A DNA stretch of 64,000 nt, from contig NZ_WVHT01000003.1 in NCBI RefSeq assembly GCF_009834875.1, forward strand, positions 186,001 through 250,000, given 5' to 3'. Below the pieces are notes generated by a model. It made no database searches and was not told where the DNA came from. It worked only from the letters and a program-made list of their open reading frames with translations. This stretch comes from Hufsiella arboris (GTDB taxonomy: Bacteria > Bacteroidota > Bacteroidia > Sphingobacteriales > Sphingobacteriaceae). Positions 29,366 through 50,034 of this stretch are shown piece by piece. The translations under genes were made by a program, and so were the position numbers. Within the stretch, counting starts at the first letter, position 1. Every line of letters starts with the position of its first letter.

Positions 29366-29935
29366 TTATTCGCCTTTTTCAGCGTTCTCTTCATTAGTTG
29401 AAGGTGCTTCTGGTTTTACTTCTTCCTGAACTTCAGGAGCAGCAGTTTCTTCAGCTTGTACTTCTTCAGCTACAGGAGCGGCAGCTACAGGAGCATCAGA
29501 TTTTTTCGCTTTAGAAGCGCCACCACGACGACGAGTTGATTTTTTCTCAACAGCAGGTGCTTCAGTTGAATAAGTTGCATTGTAATCTACTAACTCGATT
29601 AATGCCATTTCAGCGTTATCACCTAACCGATTTTGAAGTTTCAAAATGCGTGTGTAACCACCTGGACGTGTTGCTACTTTTTCTGCAATTTCGCGGAAAA
29701 GGATCGTTACTGACTCTTTGTCTTTCAAATAACTAAATACAGTACGACGTGAGTGCGTTGTGTCATTCTTTGATTTTGTGATCAAAGGTTCAACATATGT
29801 ACGTAATGCTTTTGCTTTAGCTAATGTTGTTGTAATACGTTTGTGCAGAATAAGCGAGCAAGCCATGTTTGACATCATCGCTTTACGATGACTGTCCGTG
29901 CGGCCTAAGTGATTGACTTTTTTACCGTGTCTCAT
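29366..29935 (-). CDS. rplQ: 50S ribosomal protein L17 with long C-terminal tail
   Basis: The L17 core (about residues 1-120, [20 protein letters not shown]) assembles near the exit tunnel. It is followed by about 69 extra residues: a basic patch ([15 protein letters not shown]), then an Ala/Glu/Pro-rich acidic tail. E. coli L17 is about 127 residues; extended L17 is common in Bacteroidota. It is the last gene of the alpha operon, separated from rpoA by an unusually long 153-base gap. Confidence 0.96.
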
Positions 29936-30088
29936 TATTGTTTGTTTGTTGTGGCACGTGCATACCGTCGGGCGGCGTTGCCGTCAAGCCCTCGGAATTA
30001 TGCCGGGTTATTTAATGTAGATTTGAGTAGTGAGATATGAGATGTGAGACTAATCTCAATGCTCATATCCAATGTCTCACATCTGTTT
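29936..30088 (-). repeat. rpoA-rplQ gap with word-like imperfect palindromes
   Basis: A GC-rich part (29955-30009) has small hairpins such as CGGC-GTT-GCCG. Next to the rpoA stop is an AT-rich palindrome built from one word type. AGATGTGAGAC (30040-30050) pairs with GTCTCACATCT (30074-30084), and GATATGAG (30034-30041) pairs with CTCATATC (30062-30069). These two pairings interleave. TGAGA/TCTCA (30045-30058) forms a third. Confidence 0.65.
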
Positions 30089-31081
30089 TTATTCTTCGTC
30101 TAATTTAAATTTAGACAGGTTCATACCAAATGATAAGCCTTTAGATTTTACCAGGTCCTGGATCTCAGTAAGAGATTTTTTACCAAAATTTCTGAACTTC
30201 AGCATATCTGCTACGTCATAAGACACCAACTCAGCTAATGTGCGAATATCAGCTGCTTTTAGGCAGTTTAACGCACGTACTGACAGGTCAAGATCCACCA
30301 ATTCTGTTTTAAGGATCTTACGCATATGTAAAATCTCTTCGTCAACTTCCTTAGTTTCTTCTTTCGCCTGAGCCTCTAACATAATATTCTCATCAGAGAA
30401 TAACATGAAGTGGTGGATTAAAATTTTTGCTGCTTCTTTAAGCGCGTCTTCAGGATGAATCGATCCATCGGTAGCAATATCCAGAACTAATTTTTCATAG
30501 TCTGTTTTTTGTTCAACACGATAGTTTTCAATAGTGTATTTAACATTTTTGATCGGAGTGTAAATCGAATCAATTGCTATAACACCAACAACTGCATCAG
30601 CATTCTTATTTTCTTCAGCCTGAATATAACCACGGCCCTTGTTAACAGTCAACTCAACTTCAAGAGTTATTGAGCTGTCCATGTTGCAAATAACCAGGTC
30701 AGGATTTAATACTGTAAAATTGTTTGAAAACTTGGTAATATCGCCGGCAGAGAATTTATCCTGGCCATTGATAATCACGAAGATTTTTTCTGTATCACCG
30801 GATTCACCGGTCTTTTTAAAACGAACTTGTTTTAGATTCAGAATTATCTCAGTAACATCTTCAACAACACCTTTGATAGTCGAAAACTCATGAGATACAC
30901 CTGAGAATCTAACAGAAGTAATTGCATAACCTTCTAAAGAGGAAAGCAGAATACGGCGTAATGCGTTACCAATGGTAACACCGAAACCTGGTTCCAACGG
31001 ACGAAATTCAAATGTACCGTCGAAATCAGTTGATTTCTGCATGATAACTTTATCAGGTTTCTGAAATGCTAAAATTGCCAT
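30089..31081 (-). CDS. rpoA: DNA-directed RNA polymerase subunit alpha
   Basis: The 330-residue protein has the assembly domain (about 1-235; [26 protein letters not shown]) and the C-terminal helix-hairpin-helix domain (about 262-320; [33 protein letters not shown]). It follows rpsD with a 69-base gap that holds a hairpin. Confidence 0.98.
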
Positions 31082-31114
31082 TTATCTTTTATTAATTATT
31101 TAAAATGCAATATA

Positions 31115-31136
31115 AGCTGCCTTTTAAGGGGCAGCT
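31115..31136 (-). other. Hairpin in the rpsD-rpoA gap
   Basis: AGCTGCC/GGCAGCT with an 8-base loop lies between rpsD and rpoA. On the minus strand it is followed by TTATATT and not a T-run, so it is more likely an mRNA processing or stability element than a full terminator. Confidence 0.5.
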
Positions 31137-31150
31137 CTTATCATTTATTA

Positions 31151-31759
31151 TTATTTAGAGTATAACTCGACGATCAGGTTTTCCTTGATATTCTCAGGAA
31201 TCTCGTCGCGGTTAGGGTAGTTCAGGAATTTGCCCGACAAGGAAGAGGCATCCCATTCTAACCAGCTATGTTTGTTTATCTTACGACCGGCAACAGAAGT
31301 TGTAACTGCTTCAAGCGATTTTGAACGCTCACGTACAGCAATAACATCACCGGCGCGTAATGAGTATGATGGAATATTAACGGTTTCGCCGTTAACTGTA
31401 ATATGTTTGTGGCTAACCAATTGGCGAGCTCCAGAACGTGTAGGAGCAATACCTAAACGGTAAACTGTATTATCTAAACGAGCTTCAAGAAGTTTTAACA
31501 AGTTTTCACCTGTAATACCTTGCTTTGAAGAAGCTTTGTGAAATAAGTTTTCGAACTGACGCTCTAATACACCGTATGTGTATTTAACTTTTTGTTTCTC
31601 CATTAACTGAACTGCGTATTCAGATTGCTTACCGCGACGTTTTGAAACGCCGTGCATGCCCGGAGGATAGTTCTTTTTTTCTAATGCTTTATCAGGACCG
31701 AAGATTGGTTCTCTGAATCTACGTGCAATTTTTGATTTTGGGCCAGTATATCTTGCCAT
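31151..31759 (-). CDS. rpsD: 30S ribosomal protein S4
   Basis: The 202-residue S4 starts [21 protein letters not shown] and has the S4 RNA-binding domain ([34 protein letters not shown]). S4 nucleates 30S body assembly; in E. coli it also represses its own alpha operon. It has no zinc-binding cysteines. It lies between rpsK and rpoA. Confidence 0.98.
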
Positions 31760-31826
31760 TGTTTGTGTGTTTTAAAGTATCGTGCAGCCCGCAGCTGCCG
31801 AATCTTATCTTTAAAAATTTTGTTAA

Positions 31827-32216
31827 TTAAACTCTTCTACGTTTTGGAGGACGACATCCGTTGTGTGGAAGCGGAGTAATATCCTTAATTGTTGTTACTT
31901 CGATACCTGCAGTTTGAAGCGTACGGATAGCTGATTCACGTCCGGCACCAGGGCCTTTAACGAAAACCTCTACCTTACGTAAACCAAGGTCGTAAGCAAC
32001 TTTTCCGCAATCAGACGCAGCCTGTCCGGCAGCATACGGAGTATTTTTCTTTGAACCTTTGAAACCCATTTTACCAGCAGACGACCACGAAATAGCCTGG
32101 CCCTGGCTGTTAGTTAAGGTTACAATGATATTGTTAAATGTCGCATTGATATGAGCCTGACCAACAGGTTCTACAATAACAACACGTTTTTTGGTTACTT
32201 TTTTAGTCTTAGCCAT
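31827..32216 (-). CDS. rpsK: 30S ribosomal protein S11
   Basis: The 129-residue S11 has the conserved [15 protein letters not shown] and the C-terminal [13 protein letters not shown]. It sits on the 30S platform. rpsM lies 14 bases upstream. Confidence 0.98.
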
Positions 32217-32230
32217 TATCCTGTCAATTA

Positions 32231-32608
32231 TTATTTAGTAGCCTTTTTCTTGTTTGCAACTGTTTTACGTTTTCCTTTACGGGTACGTGAGTTGTTCTTA
32301 GTACGCTGACCACGAACTGGTAACCCTTTACGGTGGCGTAAACCACGGTAGCATCCAATATCCATTAAGCGTTTAATATTCAATTGAATTTCAGAACGCA
32401 ATGAACCTTCAACTTTCACCTGATCGTTGATGATTCCACGAATTGCTGCTAATTGCTCATCGGTCCAGTCTTGTACTTTCACATTATAATCAATACCAGC
32501 CTGATCTAAAATATTTTGTGCTGTAGATCTGCCGATACCGAAAATGTAAGTAAGTCCGATTTCTCCTCTTTTGTTTCTTGGTAAATCAATACCTGATATC
32601 CTTGCCAT
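32231..32608 (-). CDS. rpsM: 30S ribosomal protein S13
   Basis: The 125-residue S13 starts [26 protein letters not shown] and has [15 protein letters not shown] with a basic tail. It contacts the P-site tRNA and the intersubunit bridge. rpmJ lies upstream across an 83-base gap with a word-like palindrome. Confidence 0.98.
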
Positions 32609-32619
32609 AGTATTATTTA

Positions 32620-32688
32620 GCGATTTTTGATTTATGATTTACGACTTACGATTAATAAATCTTCAACCGTAATTCTAAATCCAAACTT
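32620..32688 (-). repeat. rpmJ-rpsM gap with repeated GATTT/ACGA words
   Basis: The gap contains successive words TGATTT, ATGATTT, ACGACTT and ACGATT (32627-32652), then inverted versions (TAAATC at 32656-32661, and CCGTAATTCTAAATC). The overall shape is an imperfect palindrome, less perfect than those in the other gaps. Confidence 0.45.
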
Positions 32689-32691
32689 TTA

Positions 32692-32808
32692 TTATCCCTG
32701 ACGTTGCTTGTACTTAGGGTTCTTCTTATTAATTACGTAAAGCTTTCCTTTACGACGAATAATTTTGCAATCAGCGCTACGCTTTTTGATGGATGCTCTA
32801 ACTTTCAT
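32692..32808 (-). CDS. rpmJ: 50S ribosomal protein L36, zinc-free form
   Basis: This 38-residue gene reads [19 protein letters not shown] ... NPKYKQRQG. Of the usual zinc ligands (Cys11, Cys14, Cys27, His33) only Cys14 remains; positions 11, 27 and 33 are Ser, Asn and Tyr. It is therefore a C-minus L36 that does not need zinc. The ATG is one base after the infA stop. Confidence 0.95.
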
Positions 32809-32809
32809 C

Positions 32810-33028
32810 TTATTTATATCTATAAGTTATTCTGCCTTTTGTTAAATCATAAGGTGACATTTCCAGTTTAACTTTATCTCCAGGCAAAATTTTGATGTAG
32901 TGCATCCTCATCTTTCCGGAAATATGTGCAATAATTTCGTGTCCGTTTTCCAACTCTACCCGAAACATTGCATTTGATAATGCTTCTCTTATGACGCCGT
33001 CTTGTTCAATAGAGGCTTGTTTAGCCAT
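32810..33028 (-). CDS. infA: Translation initiation factor IF-1
   Basis: The 72-residue OB-fold protein has [22 protein letters not shown] and [28 protein letters not shown]-1 occupies the A site during initiation. It is the first gene after a promoter placed between map and infA. Confidence 0.98.
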
Positions 33029-33052
33029 ATTTTATTGATTTTTACTTAATTA

Positions 33053-33080
33053 GCCCGACCATTACGGGAGCGCAAAATTA
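33053..33080 (-). promoter_or_regulatory. infA promoter with CCCG...CGGG at the predicted start
   Basis: On the minus strand TAATTTTG (33080-33073) is a perfect -7 element. After CGCT comes CCCG-TAATGGT-CGGG (33068-33054), starting at the predicted transcript start. No clear -33 element is seen in the AT-rich sequence at the end of map. Confidence 0.6.
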
Positions 33081-33098
33081 AATAAAAAATTTCTTATT

Positions 33099-33884
33099 TT
33101 AATTTTTTTGTTTTAAAACTTCTTCAATATAATCAAAAGTCGATAAAATGTCCGGCTGGCCTTTCTTTACTGCTACAGTATGCTCGTAATGAGCAGATGG
33201 TAAACCATCTACAGTGCTAACAGTCCACCCATCATTCCAGAACTTAACACCAGCCCGCTTCATATTGATCATCGGTTCAATTGCCAATACCATTCCTTCT
33301 TCAAGCTTGGTACCGCTGCCGCGTTTGCCATAGTTTGGAACTTCAGGTTTTTCATGAAGCTTAAAACCTACTCCATGTCCTACCAGTTCTTTTACCACGC
33401 CGTAACCGTGCTTTTCGGCATGTTCCTGAACTGCGTAACCTATATCACCAAGGCGCATGCCCACAACTGCTTTGCTAACGCCTAACTTTAAACATTCCCT
33501 GGTTACTTCTAACAGCTTTTTAGTTTCAGAGTCGATTTCTCCAATCTCAAACGTATAAGCCGAATCACCGTAGAATTTGTCAAGAACAACGCCGCAATCA
33601 ACCGAAACAATATCACCTTCTCTCAATTCATACTTTCCCGGAAATCCATGTACCACCTGGTCATTCAATGAAATGCAAAGCGAATACGGAAATCCGTTAT
33701 AGTTTAAGAAAGCGGGTACACCGTTATTATCTCTAATATAAGTCTCAGCAAGTTCGTTTAACTTCGCAGTAGTAATACCTGGTCCGATAACCTTTGCCAC
33801 TTCCGCAAGAGTCTTAGAAACAAGTAAGGAACTTTTTCTTATTAGCTCTATCTCTTCGACAGACTTATAAAGAATTTTTGGCAT
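33099..33884 (-). CDS. map: Methionine aminopeptidase, type I
   Basis: It removes the N-terminal Met from new proteins. The 261-residue protein has the metal ligands in VSVDCGVVLDKFYGDSAYTF (two Asp), GHGVGFKLHEKP (His), AIEPMI (Glu) and the final Glu in HYEHTVAV. Length and motifs fit type I. secY lies 6 bases upstream. Confidence 0.97.
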   Translation of the reverse strand: MPKILYKSVEEIELIRKSSLLVSKTLAEVAKVIGPGITTAKLNELAETYIRDNNGVPAFLNYNGFPYSLCISLNDQVVHGFPGKYELREGDIVSVDCGVVLDKFYGDSAYTFEIGEIDSETKKLLEVTRECLKLGVSKAVVGMRLGDIGYAVQEHAEKHGYGVVKELVGHGVGFKLHEKPEVPNYGKRGSGTKLEEGMVLAIEPMINMKRAGVKFWNDGWTVSTVDGLPSAHYEHTVAVKKGQPDILSTFDYIEEVLKQKN

Positions 33885-33890
33885 AATTGA

Positions 33891-35228
33891 TTATATTCCA
33901 CTTCCAGCAGCATCAGCAGCCACCGGAGTACGTCCCCTCACTCTTCCTGTCTTCATCAAGCCGTCATAATGACGCATTAACAGGTGACTTTCAATTTGCT
34001 GTAACGTATCTAATACGACACCAACAAGAATTAAAAGTGATGTACCTCCATAGAAATGCGCAAATTGGCTGTTAACTCCAAGCTTGCTGGCAAATGATGG
34101 AAGGATTGCAATGATCGCCAGGAAAATAGATCCCGGTAAAGTAATTTTTGATATTACAGAATCAATGTAATCACCTGTTGTTTTCCCAGGTTTTACACCC
34201 GGAATAAATCCGCCGTTCTTCTTCATATCATCAGACATCTGAACAGGATTAACTGTGATAGCTGTATAAAAGAAGGTAAACAGAATAATTAGGATAGCAA
34301 AAGTAAGGCTGTACTGCCACGAAGTATAATTACTTAATGTAGCTAATAAAGTAGAGCCTTGCGCACCAGGAAAAAACTGCCCAACGGTTGCAGGTATAAA
34401 CATGATTGCCTGAGCGAAGATGATCGGCATAACACCTGCTGCATTAACTTTCAACGGAATGTACTGGCGAACTCCACCGTACTGCTTGTTGCCAACAATC
34501 TTCTTTGCATACTGTACAGGTATCTTACGAACACCTTGTACGATAAGTATTGTGAAAATTACAACAAAGAACAGCGCTGCTAACTCCACAATAAAGGGAA
34601 TCAAACCGCCATTGCCTTCCATACGTGAAGCAAACTCCTGGATCATTCCAGCCGGAAGTTGCGCAATAATCCCCACCATGATAATAAGGGAGATTCCGTT
34701 TCCTATTCCTTTGTCTGTGATTTTTTCACCAAGCCACATTACAAACATAGTACCTGCTGTTAAAATCAACATAGAGGAGATAGTGAATATCGGCTCCGCC
34801 ATCATTTTAGCCTCCGGAGTTATTTGAGAGCGCACATAGGCAGCTCCCTGAAGCACGGTGATGATAACTGTCAGATAACGTGTTATCTGATTTAGTTTCT
34901 TACGGCCACTCTCTCCCTCCTTCTGCATTTTTTGGAAAGTTGGTACAGCAATACCAAGTAACTGCACAACGATAGAAGCAGAAATGTACGGCATAACACC
35001 CAAAGCAAAAATAGATGCACGCGAGAAAGATCCCCCTGCAAACATATTCAACAGACCCAACAGGCCTTGCGTTGCTTTTTGGTTATGCAATACATTAGCA
35101 TCAACTCCGGGAAGCACGATAAATGACCCGATGCGATATACTAAAAGACATAAGAGCGTAAATAAAATACGCTCTCTTAAGTCCTGAATTTTCCAAATAT
35201 TGGATAAAGTTGTGAACAGCTTCTTCAT
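33891..35228 (-). CDS. secY: Protein translocase subunit SecY
   Basis: The 445-residue protein has ten transmembrane helices, GVMPYISASIVVQLL and the cytoplasmic loop with RKIPVQYAKK. It is the channel of the Sec translocon. It follows rplO by 3 bases in the spc operon. Confidence 0.98.
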   Translation of the reverse strand: MKKLFTTLSNIWKIQDLRERILFTLLCLLVYRIGSFIVLPGVDANVLHNQKATQGLLGLLNMFAGGSFSRASIFALGVMPYISASIVVQLLGIAVPTFQKMQKEGESGRKKLNQITRYLTVIITVLQGAAYVRSQITPEAKMMAEPIFTISSMLILTAGTMFVMWLGEKITDKGIGNGISLIIMVGIIAQLPAGMIQEFASRMEGNGGLIPFIVELAALFFVVIFTILIVQGVRKIPVQYAKKIVGNKQYGGVRQYIPLKVNAAGVMPIIFAQAIMFIPATVGQFFPGAQGSTLLATLSNYTSWQYSLTFAILIILFTFFYTAITVNPVQMSDDMKKNGGFIPGVKPGKTTGDYIDSVISKITLPGSIFLAIIAILPSFASKLGVNSQFAHFYGGTSLLILVGVVLDTLQQIESHLLMRHYDGLMKTGRVRGRTPVAADAAGSGI

Positions 35229-35231
35229 TAA

Positions 35232-35678
35232 TTACAATTTAACAATTGCGCCGCCAGCGGCTTCGATTGCTTTTTGTGCCGTTGCAGAAAATGCATGGGC
35301 TTTAACCTCTAATTTTGATTTCAATTCGCCTCTGCCCAACACTTTAACAACGTCGTTTTTCGAAACCAATCCGTGTTCTTTCAGTGTATCAAAGTCAATT
35401 GCAGTTAAGCTGAATTTCTCAGCAAGCCCCTGCAATACATCTAAATTTACACCAACATACTCAACACGGTTGATATTTTTGAAACCAACTTTAGGAATAC
35501 GACGCTGAAGCGGCATTTGTCCCCCTTCAAAACCAACCTTAGTTGTAGTACCAGAACGTGACCCGGCACCTTTATGACCACGGGTTGAAGTTCCGCCACG
35601 GCCCGAGCCGGTTCCACGACCGACACGTTTGCTATTTTTTACTGAACCTTCTGCAGGTTTTAAGTTACTTAAGTTCAT
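35232..35678 (-). CDS. rplO: 50S ribosomal protein L15
   Basis: The 148-residue L15 starts MNLSNLKPAEGSVKNSKRVG and has the Gly/Arg-rich GRGTGSGRGGTSTRGHKGAG stretch. It binds 23S rRNA during late assembly. Confidence 0.98.
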   Translation of the reverse strand: MNLSNLKPAEGSVKNSKRVGRGTGSGRGGTSTRGHKGAGSRSGTTTKVGFEGGQMPLQRRIPKVGFKNINRVEYVGVNLDVLQGLAEKFSLTAIDFDTLKEHGLVSKNDVVKVLGRGELKSKLEVKAHAFSATAQKAIEAAGGAIVKL

Positions 35679-35680
35679 GA

Positions 35681-35860
35681 TTAGATACTTTCTACTGCTA
35701 CTAAATGATTAACTTTTCTCACCATCCCAACAATTGACGGGGTAGCTTCAACCTCTACAGACTGGCTGATTTTATTTAAACCTAAAGCCTGCATGGTTCT
35801 TTTTTGGCGTTCGCTTCTGTCGATAACGCTTTTGATTTGTGTTATTTTAATCTTCGCCAT
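35681..35860 (-). CDS. rpmD: 50S ribosomal protein L30
   Basis: This 59-residue gene (MAKIKITQIKSVIDRSERQK ... KVNHLVAVESI) fills the gap between rplO and rpsE. The start ATG is at 35860 and the stop at 35681-35683. Sequence, length and position in the spc operon fit L30. Confidence 0.96.
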   Translation of the reverse strand: MAKIKITQIKSVIDRSERQKRTMQALGLNKISQSVEVEATPSIVGMVRKVNHLVAVESI

Positions 35861-35863
35861 GAC

Positions 35864-36382
35864 TTATCCGTTAAAAACTTTATTTAAGTCCACACCGCGT
35901 GTTTGAGCTACTGTGTAAGCGTCACGCAATTGTGATAACGCCGCAACTGTTGCTTTAACCACGTTATGTGGGTTTGATGAACCTTTTGACTTAGCCAATA
36001 CGTTATGTACTCCGGCACTTTCCAAAACTGCACGCATCGCACCACCGGCAATTACACCGGTACCGTTAGCTGCAGGTTTAATGAAAACAAAACCGCCTGA
36101 AAATTTACCATATTGCTCGTGAGGTACTGTGCCATTGATAACAGGAACCTTAACGAGATTTTTCTTAGCATCATCAACACCTTTGGCAATTGCTTCAGTA
36201 ACCTCTTTAGCTTTACCTAAACCGTAACCAACAACACCGTTTTCATCACCAACAACCACAATGGCCGAAAAGCTGAAAGTACGTCCGCCTTTGGTAACTT
36301 TGGCTACACGCTGGATGCTCACCAAGCGATCTTTCAATTCGATTTCGCTTGATTTTACTCTTTTTATATTAATAGTTGACAT
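35864..36382 (-). CDS. rpsE: 30S ribosomal protein S5
   Basis: The 172-residue S5 has the double-stranded RNA-binding N-terminus ([21 protein letters not shown]) and the region [20 protein letters not shown]5 shapes decoding accuracy at the mRNA entry site. Confidence 0.98.
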
Positions 36383-36392
36383 CTCTCTTCAA

Positions 36393-36746
36393 TTAAAAAA
36401 TTAAACCAGCTTCACGTGCACCTTCTGCAAGTGATTTAATACGACCATGGTATAAGTAACCATTTCTGTCAAACACTACTGAACTGATACCAGCTGCCAA
36501 TGCTTTTTCGGCAACTTGTTTACCAACAGCTTTTGACTGATCAGATTTATTACCTGTTGCAGAAAAATCTTTTGATAAAGATGATGCTGAAACTAAGGTT
36601 TTACCATCGTTGTCATCAATAATCTGGGCGTAGATACCTTTGTTGCTACGAAACACCGATAACCGTGGGCGTTCTGCAGAACCGGTCAATCTCTTTCTGA
36701 TGCCTTTCTTAATTCGCTCTCTGCGAGATAATTTTCTTACTGCCAT
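36393..36746 (-). CDS. rplR: 50S ribosomal protein L18
   Basis: The 117-residue L18 has [18 protein letters not shown] and the C-terminal [17 protein letters not shown]. It binds 5S rRNA. Confidence 0.98.
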
Positions 36747-36751
36747 GATGA

Positions 36752-37309
36752 TTATTTTTTAGATGCTGATTTACCTGCTTTTCTTCTTAACACTTCACCA
36801 ACAAACTTGATACCTTTACCTTTGTAAGGCTCTGGTGCGCGTAGTGAGCGTATTTTAGCTGCAACCTGTCCAAGCAATTGCTTGTCGATGCTTTCTAAAA
36901 TAATTGTTGGGTTTTTACCTTTTTCAGCAGTTGTTGATACTTTAATTTCTTTTGGCAATTCAAACACATAGTGGTGAGAATAACCTAAAACCAAATCAAG
37001 TGTGTTACCCTGGTTTGTAGCGCGGTAACCCACACCTACCAGTTCTTGTTCAGTTTTATAACCTTCTGTAACGCCTTTAACCATGTTATTGATCAGCGCA
37101 CGGTATAAACCATGTAATGCTTTATGACGTTTTTGTTCTGAAGGACGTTGTACTAATACATTACCATCTTCCTGTGCGATGGTCATGTCGCTATCTACTT
37201 GCTGGGTTAACTCACCTTTAGGGCCTTTTACTGTAACCAGATTTTTCTCTGATACTGTAACCGTAACGCCAGCCGGAATTGCAATTGGGGCTTTACCTAC
37301 TCTTGACAT
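36752..37309 (-). CDS. rplF: 50S ribosomal protein L6
   Basis: The 185-residue L6 starts [17 protein letters not shown] and ends with the [22 protein letters not shown] signature. Confidence 0.98.
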
Positions 37310-37329
37310 CGTTTAAACTCTCCTTGTGA

Positions 37330-37728
37330 TTAATATACGTAACACAATACTTCGCCGCCGATGTTCAGGTTCTTAGCTTCTTTGTCAGTCATTACACCTT
37401 TAGAAGTTGATAGGATAGCAATCCCTAAACCGTTTAATACTCGTGGCATTTTTGCAACACCTGCATACTTTCTCAAACCTGGTTTACTCACACGGTCAAT
37501 CGTGCGAATAGCAGGAACTTTAGTAATCGGATGATACTTTAAAGCGATTTTAATAACGCCTTGTACTGTACTGTCGTCAAACTTGTAGTTCGCGATGTAA
37601 CCTTTATCAAAAAGTACTTTTGTAATTTCCTTTTTGAGGTTTGATGCAGGAATTTCTACAACCCGGTGGTTGGCCTTAATGGCATTCCTTACTCGTGTAA
37701 GATAATCTGCTATTGGATCTGTATTCAT
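37330..37728 (-). CDS. rpsH: 30S ribosomal protein S8
   Basis: The 132-residue S8 starts MNTDPIADYLTRVRNA and has the C-terminal LNIGGEVLCYVY. In E. coli S8 represses the spc operon. It is preceded by an unusual 145-base gap with its own promoter element and a hairpin. Confidence 0.98.
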   Translation of the reverse strand: MNTDPIADYLTRVRNAIKANHRVVEIPASNLKKEITKVLFDKGYIANYKFDDSTVQGVIKIALKYHPITKVPAIRTIDRVSKPGLRKYAGVAKMPRVLNGLGIAILSTSKGVMTDKEAKNLNIGGEVLCYVY

Positions 37729-37873
37729 TATATAAAATTATGACGGCGGTTTCCTTCCCGATACCTCATCGGGACGACCTTCCATCGGTTAAAATTCTCT
37801 TTATGTGCTGAAAGCAAAGGGCGCAAAGGTAAATATTATTTTACACTTTTCGCACTTTGCTTTAATTTTCTGA
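37729..37873 (-). promoter_or_regulatory. rpsN-rpsH gap with internal promoter element and hairpin
   Basis: On the minus strand TACCTTTG (37831-37824) is a perfect -7 element; the -33 element is weak. Downstream, in the predicted leader of rpsH, TCCCGAT/ATCGGGA (37756-37762, 37768-37774) forms a 7-bp stem with a 5-base loop. The spc genes from rpsH onward may thus have their own transcript and a leader structure. Confidence 0.55.
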
Positions 37874-38143
37874 TTACCAGCTTGCTTTCTTCACTCCCGG
37901 AATTTTACCGGCAAGTGCCATTTCACGGAAAGTTACACGTGAAATTCCGAACTGACGCATATAACCGCGAGGACGGCCTGTTAATTTACAACGGTTGTGC
38001 AAACGTACAGGTGAAGCATTTTTAGGTAATTTATCTAAAGCTTCGAAGTCGCCCGCAGCTTTTAAAGCAGCTCTTTTTTCAGCGAACTTGGCAACTAATT
38101 TCGCACGTTTTACTTCACGCGCTTTGATACCTTCTTTAGCCAT
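37874..38143 (-). CDS. rpsN: 30S ribosomal protein S14, zinc-free form
   Basis: The 89-residue S14 starts at ATG 38143 ([17 protein letters not shown]); a longer frame adds ten residues that belong to the rplE end. It lacks the CxxC pairs of the zinc form, as does L36 here. It overlaps the rplE stop by 8 bases (ATGGCTAA). Confidence 0.97.
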
Positions 38144-38699
38144 TTGTATTCTGATTTTTAAATGGTAAACCAAATTGTTTCAATAACTCTAATGCTTCAA
38201 CATCAGTCTTGGCAGAAGTTACGAATGTAATATCCATACCCTGTATCTTGTTGATCTTGTCAATGTTGATCTCAGGGAAAATGATTTGCTCAGTGATACC
38301 TAAAGTATAGTTACCACGTCCGTCAAATCCTTTATCATTGATACCTTTGAAATCACGGATACGAGGAAGAGCTACTGCGATCAAACGATCAAGAAACTCA
38401 TACATGTTATTATCACGTAACGTTACACGAACACCGATCGGCATTCCTTTACGCAATTTGAAGTTTGAGATATCCTTTTTAGATTTCGCTGAAATCGCTT
38501 GCTGACCTGTGATAGTTGACAACTCAGTGATTGCATTTTCAATCAGTTTTTTGTCGGTAGAAGCACCACCAACACCCTGGTTGATTGCAATTTTTTGCAA
38601 TTTAGGAACCTGCATCACGCTTTTGTACTGAAATTTCTCTTTCAGTGCGGTACGGATATCTTCTTTATATTTCGATTTTAATCTTGGTACGTAAGTCAT
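38136..38699 (-). CDS. rplE: 50S ribosomal protein L5
   Basis: The 187-residue L5 has the conserved [15 protein letters not shown] and [21 protein letters not shown]. It binds 5S rRNA and contacts P-site tRNA. Its start overlaps the rplX stop by one base (TAATG). Confidence 0.98.
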
Positions 38700-39025
38700 T
38701 ACTTAATTTCCTCCCCAGATTTTTTAGCTACACGAACTGATTTACCATCAGCATTTAATTTTTTACCAACACGGCTTGGCTTGCCAGTTTTCACGTCAAC
38801 AACCATAAGGTTTGAGATGTGAATAGCGGCTTCCTGCTTAACGATACCACCGTTTGGATTTGCGGCGTTAGGTTTTGTATGTTTTGACACCATATTGGCA
38901 CCTTCAACAATCGCACGGTTCTTATCTACCAATACTTCAAGTACTTTACCTTGCTTACCTTTTGAGTCGCCGGCAATAACCTGAACCTGGTCGCCTTTAC
39001 GGATTTTTAATTTAATATTTCCCAT
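38699..39025 (-). CDS. rplX: 50S ribosomal protein L24
   Basis: The 108-residue L24 has the KOW motif ([22 protein letters not shown]). It starts 50S assembly at the 5' end of 23S rRNA. Confidence 0.98.
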
Positions 39026-39026
39026 G

Positions 39027-39395
39027 TTACAATACCTCCGGAGCTAATGATACAATTTTCATGAATTGTTTTTCACGTAACTCTCTGGCTACCGGGCCAA
39101 AAATACGTGTTCCACGCGGCTCATCCTGATTATTCAGTAATACAGCTGCGTTATCGTCGAAACGGATGTACGAACCGTCTTTACGGCGTACTTCTTTTTT
39201 AGTTCTAACAACTACTGCTTTCGATACAGTACCTTTTTTGATGTTTCCTGCAGGAATAGCGCTTTTTACAGACACTACAATTTTATCTCCCAATGAAGCA
39301 TAACGCTTCGCAGTACCACCTAAAACACGGATCACTAAAACTTCTTTAGCACCGCTGTTGTCAGCAACATTCAGTCTTGATTCCTGTTGTACCAT
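39027..39395 (-). CDS. rplN: 50S ribosomal protein L14
   Basis: The 122-residue L14 starts [20 protein letters not shown] and has [15 protein letters not shown], both family signatures. Confidence 0.98.
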
Positions 39396-39396
39396 G

Positions 39397-39651
39397 TTAC
39401 TTAGCCCTCTCTAAAATTTCAACTAATCTCCAGTTCTTAGTTTTACTCAGCGGACGAGTTTCCATTATTAACACTGTATCTCCGATACCGCAAGTGTTAG
39501 TCTCGTCATGAGCCATAAATTTGGTAGTTTTCTTTACGAACTTACCATAGATCGGGTGTTTCACTTTACGTTCTACAGCAACCACAATGGATTTCGCCAT
39601 TTTGTTGCTTACAACTAACCCGATACGTGTTTTCCTTAATTGTCTTTCCAT
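39397..39651 (-). CDS. rpsQ: 30S ribosomal protein S17
   Basis: The 84-residue S17 has the OB-fold core [24 protein letters not shown] and [20 protein letters not shown]. Confidence 0.98.
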
Positions 39652-39662
39652 TTCGACTTTAA

Positions 39663-39896
39663 TTATTCAGTTTCAGAAGCGGACTTTGACTCGGCAGATG
39701 CTTTAGCTTCCGCGTTGCGCTTAGTCAATTCTGTTGTTAAACGTGCGATGTCTTTTCTGACTTTGTTTATACGAGTTGGATTCTCGATGGCAGAAACTGC
39801 ATGCGCAAATTTTAATTTAGTAAGATTGGTTTTTTCCTCGCCGATGCGAGCAACAATCTCCTCTTTTGATAGCTCTAATATTTCTGAGTTTTTCAT
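39663..39896 (-). CDS. rpmC: 50S ribosomal protein L29
   Basis: The 77-residue L29 has [25 protein letters not shown] and a Ser/Ala/Glu-rich tail. It lies by the exit tunnel. Confidence 0.95.
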
Positions 39897-39902
39897 CTTT
39901 TT

Positions 39903-39975
39903 ACAAGTTATAAGTTGTAAGTTTTTAAGTTGTAAGTAATTGACTTATAACCTACAACTTTCAACTTTAAACTTT
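39903..39975 (-). repeat. rplP-rpmC gap with AAGTTGTAAGT direct and inverted repeats
   Basis: AAGTTGTAAGT occurs twice (39912-39922, 39927-39937), and its near inverse ACCTACAACTT at 39950-39960, among variants such as AAGTTATAAGT and ACTTATAA. The whole gap is an imperfect palindrome made of one word. It lies directly after the rplP stop. Confidence 0.65.
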
Positions 39976-39976
39976 C

Positions 39977-40399
39977 TTATGCTTCCGCGTAATCTCTACG
40001 CACTACAAATTTTGTTTGAACCGGTAATTTTTGAGCGGCTAAACGCAATGCTTCTTTGGCAATATCCAAAGGCACACCTTCAGCTTCAAAAATCATTCTT
40101 CCTGGGCGTACAACTGCTACCCAATACTCAGGCGCACCTTTACCTTTACCCATACGTACTTCAGCTGGTTTCTTAGTTACTGGCTTATCCGGGAAAATAC
40201 GGATCCACACCTGGCCTTCACGTTTCATGAAACGGGTTACGGCGATACGGGCAGCTTCTATCTGACGGCTGGTAATCCACGCTGGTTCTAATGATTTAAT
40301 TCCGAAAGAACCGAAAGCAAGTTCGGCACCACGGCCAGCAAGACCTTTCATCCTGCCTTTCTGCATCTTTCTGAACTTCGTTCTTTTTGGCTGTAACAT
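39977..40399 (-). CDS. rplP: 50S ribosomal protein L16
   Basis: The 140-residue L16 starts [19 protein letters not shown] and has [22 protein letters not shown]. It helps place A-site tRNA. Confidence 0.98.
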
Positions 40400-47864: not shown

Positions 47865-47931
47865 ATTATTTATCAAGTAGCTAGTATCAAGATGTTAATC
47901 TAACTACTTTATACTCTCTACTTGATACTTT
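47865..47931 (-). repeat. fusA-rpsJ gap with AAGTATCAAGTAG palindrome
   Basis: TATCAAGTAG (47871-47880) pairs with CTACTTGATA (47918-47927), and AGTATCAAG (47883-47891) pairs with CTTGATACT (47921-47929). The right arms overlap, so the two pairings exclude each other. The unit lies directly after the fusA stop. Confidence 0.65.
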
Positions 47932-50034
47932 TTATGCACTTACTTTACCTTTTGCTTTTGCAACAACTTCGTCCTGAACGTTACGAGGAGCTTCTTCGTA
48001 GTGATCGAACTCCATTGTTGACGTTGCACGACCTGAAGTGATGGTACGTAACTGAGTTACATAACCGAACATTTCAGAAAGTGGCACAGTTGCTTTGATT
48101 ACCTGTGAACCTGCACGTGAATCCATACCTAAAAGCTGGCCACGACGACGGTTCATGTCACCGATAACATCACCCATGTTTTCTTCAGGGGTAAGGATTT
48201 CGATTTTCATGATCGGCTCAAGCAATACCGGTTTACATTTAACCAAAGCTTCGCGGTAAGCAGATTTCGCTGCAATTTCGAACGACAGTGAATCTGAATC
48301 GACTGCGTGGAATGAACCATCAATCAAACGAACTTTTAAGCTGGTTAGCGGATATCCTGCTAATACACCATTCGCCATAGAAGCGGCAAAGCCCTTTTCT
48401 ACAGATGGGATATATTCACGAGGAATAGCACCACCGCTGATTTCGTTAACAAATTGCAATCCTTCTTTACCGTCATCTGCAGGTGAAATAATAACCTGGA
48501 TATCAGCAAATTTACCACGCCCACCAGTTTGTTTCTTATAAGTTTCACGGTGTTGAACAGTTCCTGTAATTGCTTCTTTGTAAGCAACCTGAGGAGCGCC
48601 CTGATTAACTTCCACTTTGAATTCACGTCTCAAACGATCCATGATAATATCCAAGTGAAGCTCACCCATACCTGAAATTACGGTCTGGCCGGTTTCTTCG
48701 TCAGAATTTACACGGAAAGTTGGATCTTCTTCAGCCAGTTTACCCAAAGCTAAACCTAATTTATCTACATCAGCCTGTGTTTTAGGCTCGATAGCTAAAC
48801 CGATAACCGGATCAGGGAACTGCATTGACTCAAGAATGATCGGGTGTTTCTCATCACAAAGAGTATCACCTGTTTTAATATCCTTAAAGCCTACTACCGC
48901 AGCAATATCACCAGCACCTACGTTAGGGATTGGGTTTTGCTTGTTAGCATGCATTTGGAAGATACGTGAAATACGTTCTTTATTGTCTGAACGCATGTTG
49001 TGAACATACGACCCAGCTTCAAGGTTACCTGAGTATACACGGATAAAGCATAAACGACCGACAAACGGATCAGTTGCGATCTTAAATGCCAATGCCGAAA
49101 ACGGTTCTTTGATATCTGGTCTGCGTAAAATCTCCTCACCAGTATCCGGGTTGTGACCCACGATACCTTCTACGTCCATAGGTGAAGGCAATAATTCCAT
49201 CACATAATCAAGCATAGTTTGTACACCTTTATTTTTAAAAGATGAACCACAAACCATAGGAACGATTTTAGCGTCAAGAACGGCTTTACGCAAAGCGTCT
49301 AATACTTCACGCTCGGTAATTGTTTCCGGAGCGTCGAAGAATTTTTCCATCAACGTTTCATCGTACTCGGCAACAGATTCAAGTAACTTTTCTCTCCATT
49401 CAGTTGCTTCCTCAACCATATCTTCGGGAATAGGAACTTCAGTAAAGGTCATGCCTTTATCATGCTCGTTCCATACTACACCACGGAAGTTAATTAAATC
49501 GATAACGCCTTTGAAGCTATCTTCCGCGCCGATTGGCAACTGCAATGGAACAGCGTTGCTTCCCAGCATGCTTTTTACCTGTTTTACAACATTTAAAAAG
49601 TCAGCACCCGAGCGGTCCATTTTATTTACGAATCCAATACGGGCAACATTGTAGTTGTTAGCAAGTCTCCAGTTTGTTTCTGATTGAGGCTCAACACCAT
49701 CAACAGCAGAAAACAAGAAAACTAAACCATCCAGTACACGCAGTGAACGATTCACCTCAACGGTGAAATCCACGTGTCCGGGAGTATCAATAATGTTGAT
49801 GTGATAGTTGTGGTCTCTGTATTTCCAGTTAACAGTTGTAGCAGCCGAAGTGATGGTAATACCACGCTCCTGCTCCTGTGCCATCCAGTCCATTGTTGCA
49901 GCACCTTCGTGAACTTCGCCAATTTTGTGGCTTACACCTGCATAATACAGAATACGCTCAGTAGTTGTAGTTTTACCAGCATCAATGTGAGCGGCAATCC
50001 CAATGTTTCTTGTATATCTTAAATCTCTTGACAT
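47932..50034 (-). CDS. fusA: Elongation factor G
   Basis: EF-G drives translocation on the ribosome. The 700-residue GTPase has the P-loop [25 protein letters not shown] and NKMDRSGAD, then domains II-V. It lies between rpsG and rpsJ. Confidence 0.98.

Follow-up and report, generated by a model that had tools for sequence, protein, structure and literature searches.

The window analyzed here is a stretch of 64,000 nt (contig positions 186001–250000), and its ribosomal operons occupy the minus strand from ∼29.4 to 50.9 kb. Four of the gaps between their genes contain hairpins directly behind a stop codon, which raises the question of what these hairpins are made of and whether it is their sequence, their pairing or neither that is preserved. 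The original prediction described AT-rich imperfect palindromes in the gaps after rpoA, rpmJ, rplP and fusA, composed of arbitrary words of 8–12 bases private to each gap. All four palindromes are present and fold below shuffled sequences. The reading preferred in this study, to which a probability of slightly less than one half (about 0.47) is assigned, is that they are stem-loops between the cistrons of ribosomal operons, placed right behind stop codons and with stems composed of heptanucleotide repeats that are kept for their pairing and renewed by slippage and replacement.

The first hairpin (30020..30083, on the minus strand, as are the other three and their genes) lies in the rpoA|rplQ gap behind the stop codon of rpoA (30089..31081), the gene that was used as the query for finding relatives; it is built from the words GATGTGAG and GATATGAG and has six period-7 matches. 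The second (32630..32686), in the rpmJ|rpsM gap behind rpmJ (32692..32808), also has six matches, with the words GATTTAG, AATTACG and ATCGTAA, and related words are present in the sister genome G001. The third (39905..39974) follows rplP (39977..40399) in the rplP|rpmC gap, with the word AAGTTGT and 12 matches, and the fourth (47871..47927) follows fusA (47932..50034) in the fusA|rpsJ gap, with the word GTATCAA and nine matches. The names of these and the other genes of the window are presumed ones, assigned from sequence and gene order. The palindromes begin right at the stop codons, as was predicted: the first stem base is located 5, 5, 2 and 4 nt behind the stop in the rpoA, rpmJ, rplP and fusA hairpins, respectively. 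In the sense of the mRNA (minus strand), the folding energies of the four gaps in the same order are −16.7, −15.3, −20.7 and −20.8 kcal/mol, with z-scores against dinucleotide shuffles of −2.15, −3.94, −3.49 and −4.85. The alternative folds that had been proposed hold best in two gaps, as the suboptimal-fold listing contains register-shifted structures at 1.1 kcal/mol (rplP|rpmC) and 1.8 kcal/mol (rpmJ|rpsM) above the best fold; they are less evident in rpoA|rplQ (4.1 kcal/mol), and none is listed within 6 kcal/mol of the best in fusA|rpsJ. Such register slips follow from the repeats in the stems and are the likely source of the interleaved pairings described earlier.

A comparison with Rfam gave no family at the gathering score in the whole window or in seven further loci; at E ≤ 1 (window positions 29900–40100) only a microRNA family was obtained, on the rplP|rpmC hairpin (E of 0.9, 22.4 of 43 bits). 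The rpsN|rpsH gap of the window (37729–37873) was considered as a fifth member and rejected: it folds well, but contains no period-7 matches and holds a TACCTTTG box. Boxes of the types TACCTTTG and TAATTTTG are located in this gap and in the map|infA gap (33029–33098), both on the minus strand, and we take them to resemble the Bacteroidota −7 promoter element.

The stems are a degenerate heptanucleotide repeat, a single architecture with a 7 nt period, and the arbitrary words of 8–12 bases of the original prediction are thereby replaced. Across the eight ribosomal-protein gaps of the window, repeated 4-mers are in 9.1-fold excess at lag 7 and in 7.6-fold excess at lag 14. When this genome and 59 relatives (60 records) were analyzed, at least four period-7 matches were found in 101 of 510 gaps, compared with 1–32 gaps at periods 4–6 and 8–13, the runner-up being period 8 with 32; among shuffled gaps only 6/2550 reached this level. 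After removal of low-complexity 5-mers and of a single gap with an N, a spectrum of 5-mer matches calculated from 243 gaps in Mucilaginibacter and neighbouring taxa gave 32.0, 43.3 and 22.7 matches per 1000 positions at lags 7, 14 and 21, respectively, against 0.0–10.0 at the remaining lags from 2 to 24. This larger filtered set replaced an earlier spectrum from Mucilaginibacter and Daejeonella, in which the baseline was raised ∼4-fold at all lags. Judged by RpoA, the closest relatives that bear a name are a Sphingobacteriaceae MAG (96%), followed by Mucilaginibacter and Daejeonella (94%); genes of relatives were mapped by tblastn with the window proteins, and the genus groups used below are our own assignment from record names. 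The 60-record counts exclude L218 (the same as L013), L224 (the same as L014), the near-duplicate L039 and the distant L053. All p-values are descriptive, since rows from related species are not independent.

With a stricter threshold of at least six matches, the period was detected in four of the eight ribosomal-protein gaps of at least 45 nt in this genome compared with 6/347 gaps elsewhere (760 kb sampled), and the corresponding Fisher value of 2e-5 is only descriptive because the four gaps had been chosen by the earlier reader. By eye, two of these six other gaps look like the same type of hairpin (C12:172507–172588 and C1:21352–21439), the former being flanked by the presumed genes iscU and iscA. 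At this threshold 58/528 gaps were found at period 7 in the rpoA loci across the family (1–9 at other periods), 24/184 in G001 (0–4 at other periods) and 38/219 in G042, the genome reached via the Daejeonella locus L016 (2–7 at other periods). No clear excess was obtained in the sampled gaps of this genome outside the window, where the 6/347 at period 7 compare with 0–5 at other periods, or in those of G046 (3/207 versus 1–7), and in other Bacteroidota period 7 was found in seven of 302 gaps, the same number as period 8. Genes in the samples were called as longest ORFs; in the window a spurious ORF then masked the rplP|rpmC gap, giving 3/34 gaps versus 4/8 with mapped genes. Two other search methods were rejected. 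An ungapped palindrome finder missed the only clear element in its sample (C12:172507–172588), and most of the hits of a 6-mer word score, in all sequence as well as in gaps (26/205 and 111/570), were repeats of other kinds, so the period test was used instead.

Heptad gaps, i.e. those with at least four matches in the 60 records, are unevenly distributed. They were found in rpsN|rpsH (32/56), rpoA|rplQ (25/60), rpsM|rpsK (17/39), rplP|rpmC (11/53), rpsD|rpoA (9/60), rpmJ|rpsM (5/46), fusA|rpsJ (1/2) and rpmD|rplO (1/22), while the single rpsG|fusA gap has none (0/1) and none was found among the 171 rpsS|rplV, rpsC|rplP, map|infA and rpsK|rpsD gaps. Seven kinds of gap hold heptads in 100/316 cases and four other kinds in 0/171, a split made after the counts had been seen; the four heptad-free kinds are also shorter (medians of 47–78 nt versus 71–148 nt), so length may account for part of it. 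At least one heptad gap is present in 43 of the 60 records, with 64/263 gaps in Mucilaginibacter and relatives, 10/16 in Daejeonella, 5/21 in the own genus together with L012, 17/96 in Pedobacter, 1/80 in Sphingobacterium (ten records) and 4/34 in five others. The period score overlooks weaker cases, such as fusA|rpsJ of G001, in which a GATTACAC hairpin is plain by eye.

The position of the hairpins is constant, with a median distance from the stop codon of 2–6 nt depending on the gap. A fold with z < −2 was calculated for 83/101 heptad gaps compared with 231/409 non-heptad gaps. In rpsD|rpoA such a hairpin is present in all 60 records although it is built from heptads in only nine, which indicates that at this site it is the hairpin that is maintained, with the words serving as filler; elsewhere it is less regular (41/60 in rpoA|rplQ and 21/39 in rpsM|rpsK).

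Other elements were observed in the same loci. Directly upstream of rpsH (37738–37792, minus strand) there is a candidate leader RNA of the form TTAACCGATGG-AGGTC-variable hairpin-GGAAACC-CCATC. Its motif pattern occurs in 25/42 records, all 200 of 200 cells of its eight pairs are paired, and double changes occur in four pairs outside the fixed letters (17 cells; 0/500 shuffles); Rfam gave no match to it. A second candidate leader, GCATAATTCC-variable hairpin-GACGGTATGC, is located directly upstream of rplQ (29955–30007, minus strand). Here the pattern occurs in 25/55 records, 85.7% of the cells of seven pairs are paired and double changes occur in four pairs, a value found in 7/500 shuffles and also given by a slide of +2. 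In the rpsM|rpsK gaps of Mucilaginibacter and Daejeonella (for example L018:8624–8772), heptad arms surround a core that is conserved (AGGAATA ... GGGTCCGG or CTGGAATA ... GAGTGCCGGG); the heptads look like the outer helix in a conserved RNA.

Exchange of words at one and the same gap is seen in fusA|rpsJ, which contains GTATCAA in this genome, GATTACAC in the sister genome and GTTGATT in L224, and the expectation that words change between relatives therefore held. In Pedobacter the rpsN|rpsH gap contains GTATCAA, AAAGCTT or AAGTTGT words between conserved flanks. In one gap, relatives have different words, a plain stem or nothing; rpmJ|rpsM is occupied by a conserved GC-rich element in many records and by a heptad hairpin in others, and in still others it is short. 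The GC-rich element, CCGTACAACGGTGGCCCGCCGTTCGG, is found in many Mucilaginibacter and Pedobacter records (for example L013:8264–8312), at the place where the window has its heptad hairpin.

The words are drawn from a shared vocabulary rather than being peculiar to single gaps. The most frequent heptads, TTTGAGA, TGAGATA, TTTTAGA and TGTGAGA, each occur in 13–16 records among 329 distinct necklaces, and word families are common to several genera. The two-heptad pattern GATNTGAGATNTGAG has five matches in this genome, one of which is the rpoA|rplQ hairpin itself, 47 in G001 (overlapping ones counted), 46 in G014 and 19 in G042; it is absent from three of the twelve genomes searched, and the reversed control gave 0–1 matches. 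A long near-perfect array of ACCGATT heptads in G042 (C1:151081–151235) has the appearance of a recent expansion. Arrays of the heptad TCTCAAA/GAGATTT were also observed in viral contigs (L260–L333), in at least 34 places among the 80 loci listed, where chance matches are expected; 17 of the 34 listed are in loci with a G+C content of 0.58–0.70, and several lie directly upstream of a start codon. Among the listed viral loci, partnerless arrays near starts are C-rich in sense by 15 to 4, while with doubles removed and another rule the counts were 6 to 3 near starts and 5 to 9 near stops; as the orientation counts differ between rules, nothing is built on them.

Compensating changes were analyzed in four word-sharing sets chosen by eye, with structures drawn from the same alignments, so that the analysis is biased in favour of these structures. 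In nine Mucilaginibacter rpoA|rplQ hairpins, 94.7% of the cells of 17 pairs are paired and seven pairs have a double change, whereas the shuffled controls gave a mean of 3.0 (3/500 as high) and slid partners gave 0–1. Compensation is clear in this word family only. Five rpoA|rplQ hairpins with the word CAAGAATCAAGA (28 pairs, 92.1% paired) have a double change in two pairs, with 142/500 shuffles as high; nine rplP|rpmC hairpins with GTTGTAATGTTG (16 pairs, 88.1% paired) also have two, with 80/500 shuffles as high and 1–5 for slid partners; and four Pedobacter rpsN|rpsH hairpins with GTATCAA have one in 29 pairs. The prediction that pairing is kept while the words change is thus borne out for one word family and is not clear in the other three, and selection for pairing is likely, but no more than that. 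Pairwise comparison of pooled heptad gaps, carried out from 60% identity and repeated from 70%, showed that double changes are still paired in 193/332 cells compared with 344/971 for slid partners at 70–80% identity, and in 59/114 compared with 111/309 at 80–97% identity. One-sided changes are still paired in 424/1304 cells at 70–80% identity, no better than slid partners (2535/6489), and in 344/750 versus 1407/3770 at 80–97%. The non-heptad hairpins of the same gaps behave similarly. Furthermore, coupled changes can also arise by the copying of one arm onto the other. An inverted partner is present in 101/132 heptad gaps, with 50/57 in the rpoA loci of the family versus 39/60 in the samples of G001 and G042 (Fisher 0.005).

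The hairpins also have a pronounced polarity. The left arm contains more G than C in 84 heptad hairpins, less in nine and equal numbers in eight; in 18 further Mucilaginibacter genomes the corresponding counts are 32, one and three, with six lacking a usable partner. Control palindromes from gaps with few or no heptad matches gave 229 more, 206 fewer and 117 equal. A palindrome is identical on both strands, and this polarity is therefore not a matter of the gene strand. The rule is a strong one.

The main rival to the preferred reading is that the hairpins are a neutral by-product, formed by heptad slippage and by template switching at imperfect palindromes, chiefly in highly transcribed DNA, and persisting in gaps behind stop codons, where hairpins are tolerated. 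This is possible, if less probable than the preferred reading. Polymerase slippage has been proposed for repeats with 7 nt units (Mrazek et al. 2007, according to the available part of PMC4679880), and quasi-palindrome mutations in highly transcribed yeast DNA are reported in the available part of PMC3820800. The heptad arrays in many gaps of G001 and G042, some of which are long and near-perfect and some partnerless, indicate that a mutational habit accounts for part of the pattern, and the three word families in which compensation is unclear fit this as well. Plain repeats without pairing, which according to the original prediction would speak against it, do occur in part: an inverted partner is present in only 9/22 heptad gaps of G001, in contrast to the rpoA loci of the family. 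However, the gaps sampled outside the ribosomal operons stay close to background in this genome and in G046, where a genome-wide habit alone is therefore insufficient, and the strong compensation in the nine Mucilaginibacter hairpins, together with the unrelated plain stems that occupy rpsD|rpoA in most records, also argues against a purely neutral origin.

A mobile palindrome dispersed in the manner of REP or MITE elements would explain why word families recur within and between genomes, but what recurs are words and not whole elements. In this genome none of the three hairpins searched has a long second copy, the best being 20–31 nt, which agrees with the predicted repetition of a design (here a shared 7 nt period with differing words) rather than of a sequence, and makes a mobile element very unlikely. 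Ordinary intrinsic terminators or attenuators are likewise disfavoured, to the point of being highly improbable. The hairpins do follow stop codons, and L232 and L235 have a terminator-like stem and T-run in the rpoA|rplQ gap; however, the stems are AT-rich and located inside operons, and a T-run behind the first stem was found for just 5/101 heptad hairpins compared with 37/409 other gaps, so that these are unlikely to be ordinary terminators. A further proposal, compatible with the intercistronic reading as a special case of it, is a translation switch in which the C-rich 3′ arm would serve the next gene as an enhancer-like leader, masked by the G-rich 5′ arm until a ribosome reaches the stop codon. 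Among partnerless arrays lying up to 40 nt upstream of a start, a C-richer sense strand prevails by 15 to 2 with three ties (15 to 1 with another rule), and the median distance from the hairpin end to the next start is only 12 nt in rplP|rpmC and rpmJ|rpsM. However, gap ends beside starts lean towards C in the same way without heptads (507 to 258), in rpoA|rplQ and rpsN|rpsH the median distance from the hairpin end to the start is 84 and 74 nt, and the polarity is present not only in co-directional (61 to 6) and divergent (9 to 2) gaps but also in convergent gaps, which are free of starts (14 to 1). An origin of the polarity in translation starts thus holds only partly, and the switch appears quite unlikely.

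If the hairpins are intercistronic stem-loops kept for their pairing, any sufficiently strong stem would serve, and selection would preserve pairing and position rather than sequence. New stems would arise by heptad slippage and by replacement of whole hairpins, as described for the Nostoc P6b stem in the available part of PMC4476775. In the mRNA the hairpin would form a boundary between cistrons, and its effect on the message would most probably be to shield the 3′ end of the upstream message or to set the output of the next cistron. As the stem begins a few nucleotides past the stop codon, a terminating ribosome would melt its base, so that re-initiation downstream could be linked to upstream translation. 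A broader and unlikely extension would be that Bacteroidota keep slots for post-stop hairpins in their ribosomal operons, which are refilled from a shared and dispersing set of heptads with G-rich left arms, that only period, polarity and pairing are inherited, and that register-shifting folds couple the translation of neighbouring cistrons. If pairing is kept, the hairpins would be a natural case of a structure that outlasts the complete replacement of its sequence, at fixed positions within operons that are themselves highly conserved; if it is not, they would be a striking mutational signature that produces heptad palindromes at chosen gaps.

The literature searched, with most subscription journals outside its scope, contained no description of these hairpins in Sphingobacteriaceae in the texts available, and several known systems resemble them in part. 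The long simple sequence repeats of Mrazek et al. 2007, for which slippage was proposed, share the 7 nt unit; they are tandem, and paired arms are not mentioned in the available part of the account in PMC4679880. According to the same part of that source, direct repeats of the heptamer TAACTGA occur in Beggiatoaceae, Cyanobacteria and five Bacteroidetes, in intergenic positions that include some ribosomal-protein operons, and other heptamer repeats occur in gaps of some Bacteroidetes. These share the 7 nt unit, the intergenic location and the ribosomal-protein operons with the present hairpins; however, they consist of one fixed word, repeated directly (a single indirect repeat is given for the main genome) and mostly located directly upstream of start codons, whereas the hairpins have many words and paired arms and lie behind stop codons. 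With regard to the type of role proposed, a comparable system is the Ruminiclostridium cip-cel operon, in which intercistronic stem-loops control mRNA processing and are linked to the product ratio; word repeats are not mentioned for it in the part of PMC10311766 that was available. The closest known case is the P6b stem of the Nostoc tRNA-Leu(UAA) group I intron, which, as far as the available part of PMC4476775 describes, is composed of degenerate 7 nt repeats of two motif classes (TDNGATT and NNTGAGT) thought to be equivalent in role, with repeat insertions and deletions on both sides of the stem and repeated replacement of the whole stem during evolution. Both systems have a 7 nt unit, arms that pair with each other and a word class that is exchanged at the same site between relatives. 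In contrast to the single intron stem with its two motif classes, the four hairpins of the window are located between protein genes and not in such a P6b stem, and the hairpins as a whole occupy many intercistronic post-stop sites, with many word families, in a different phylum and without an intron. On either reading of their origin, the heptad-built stem, known from cyanobacterial introns, thus extends to another phylum and another context.
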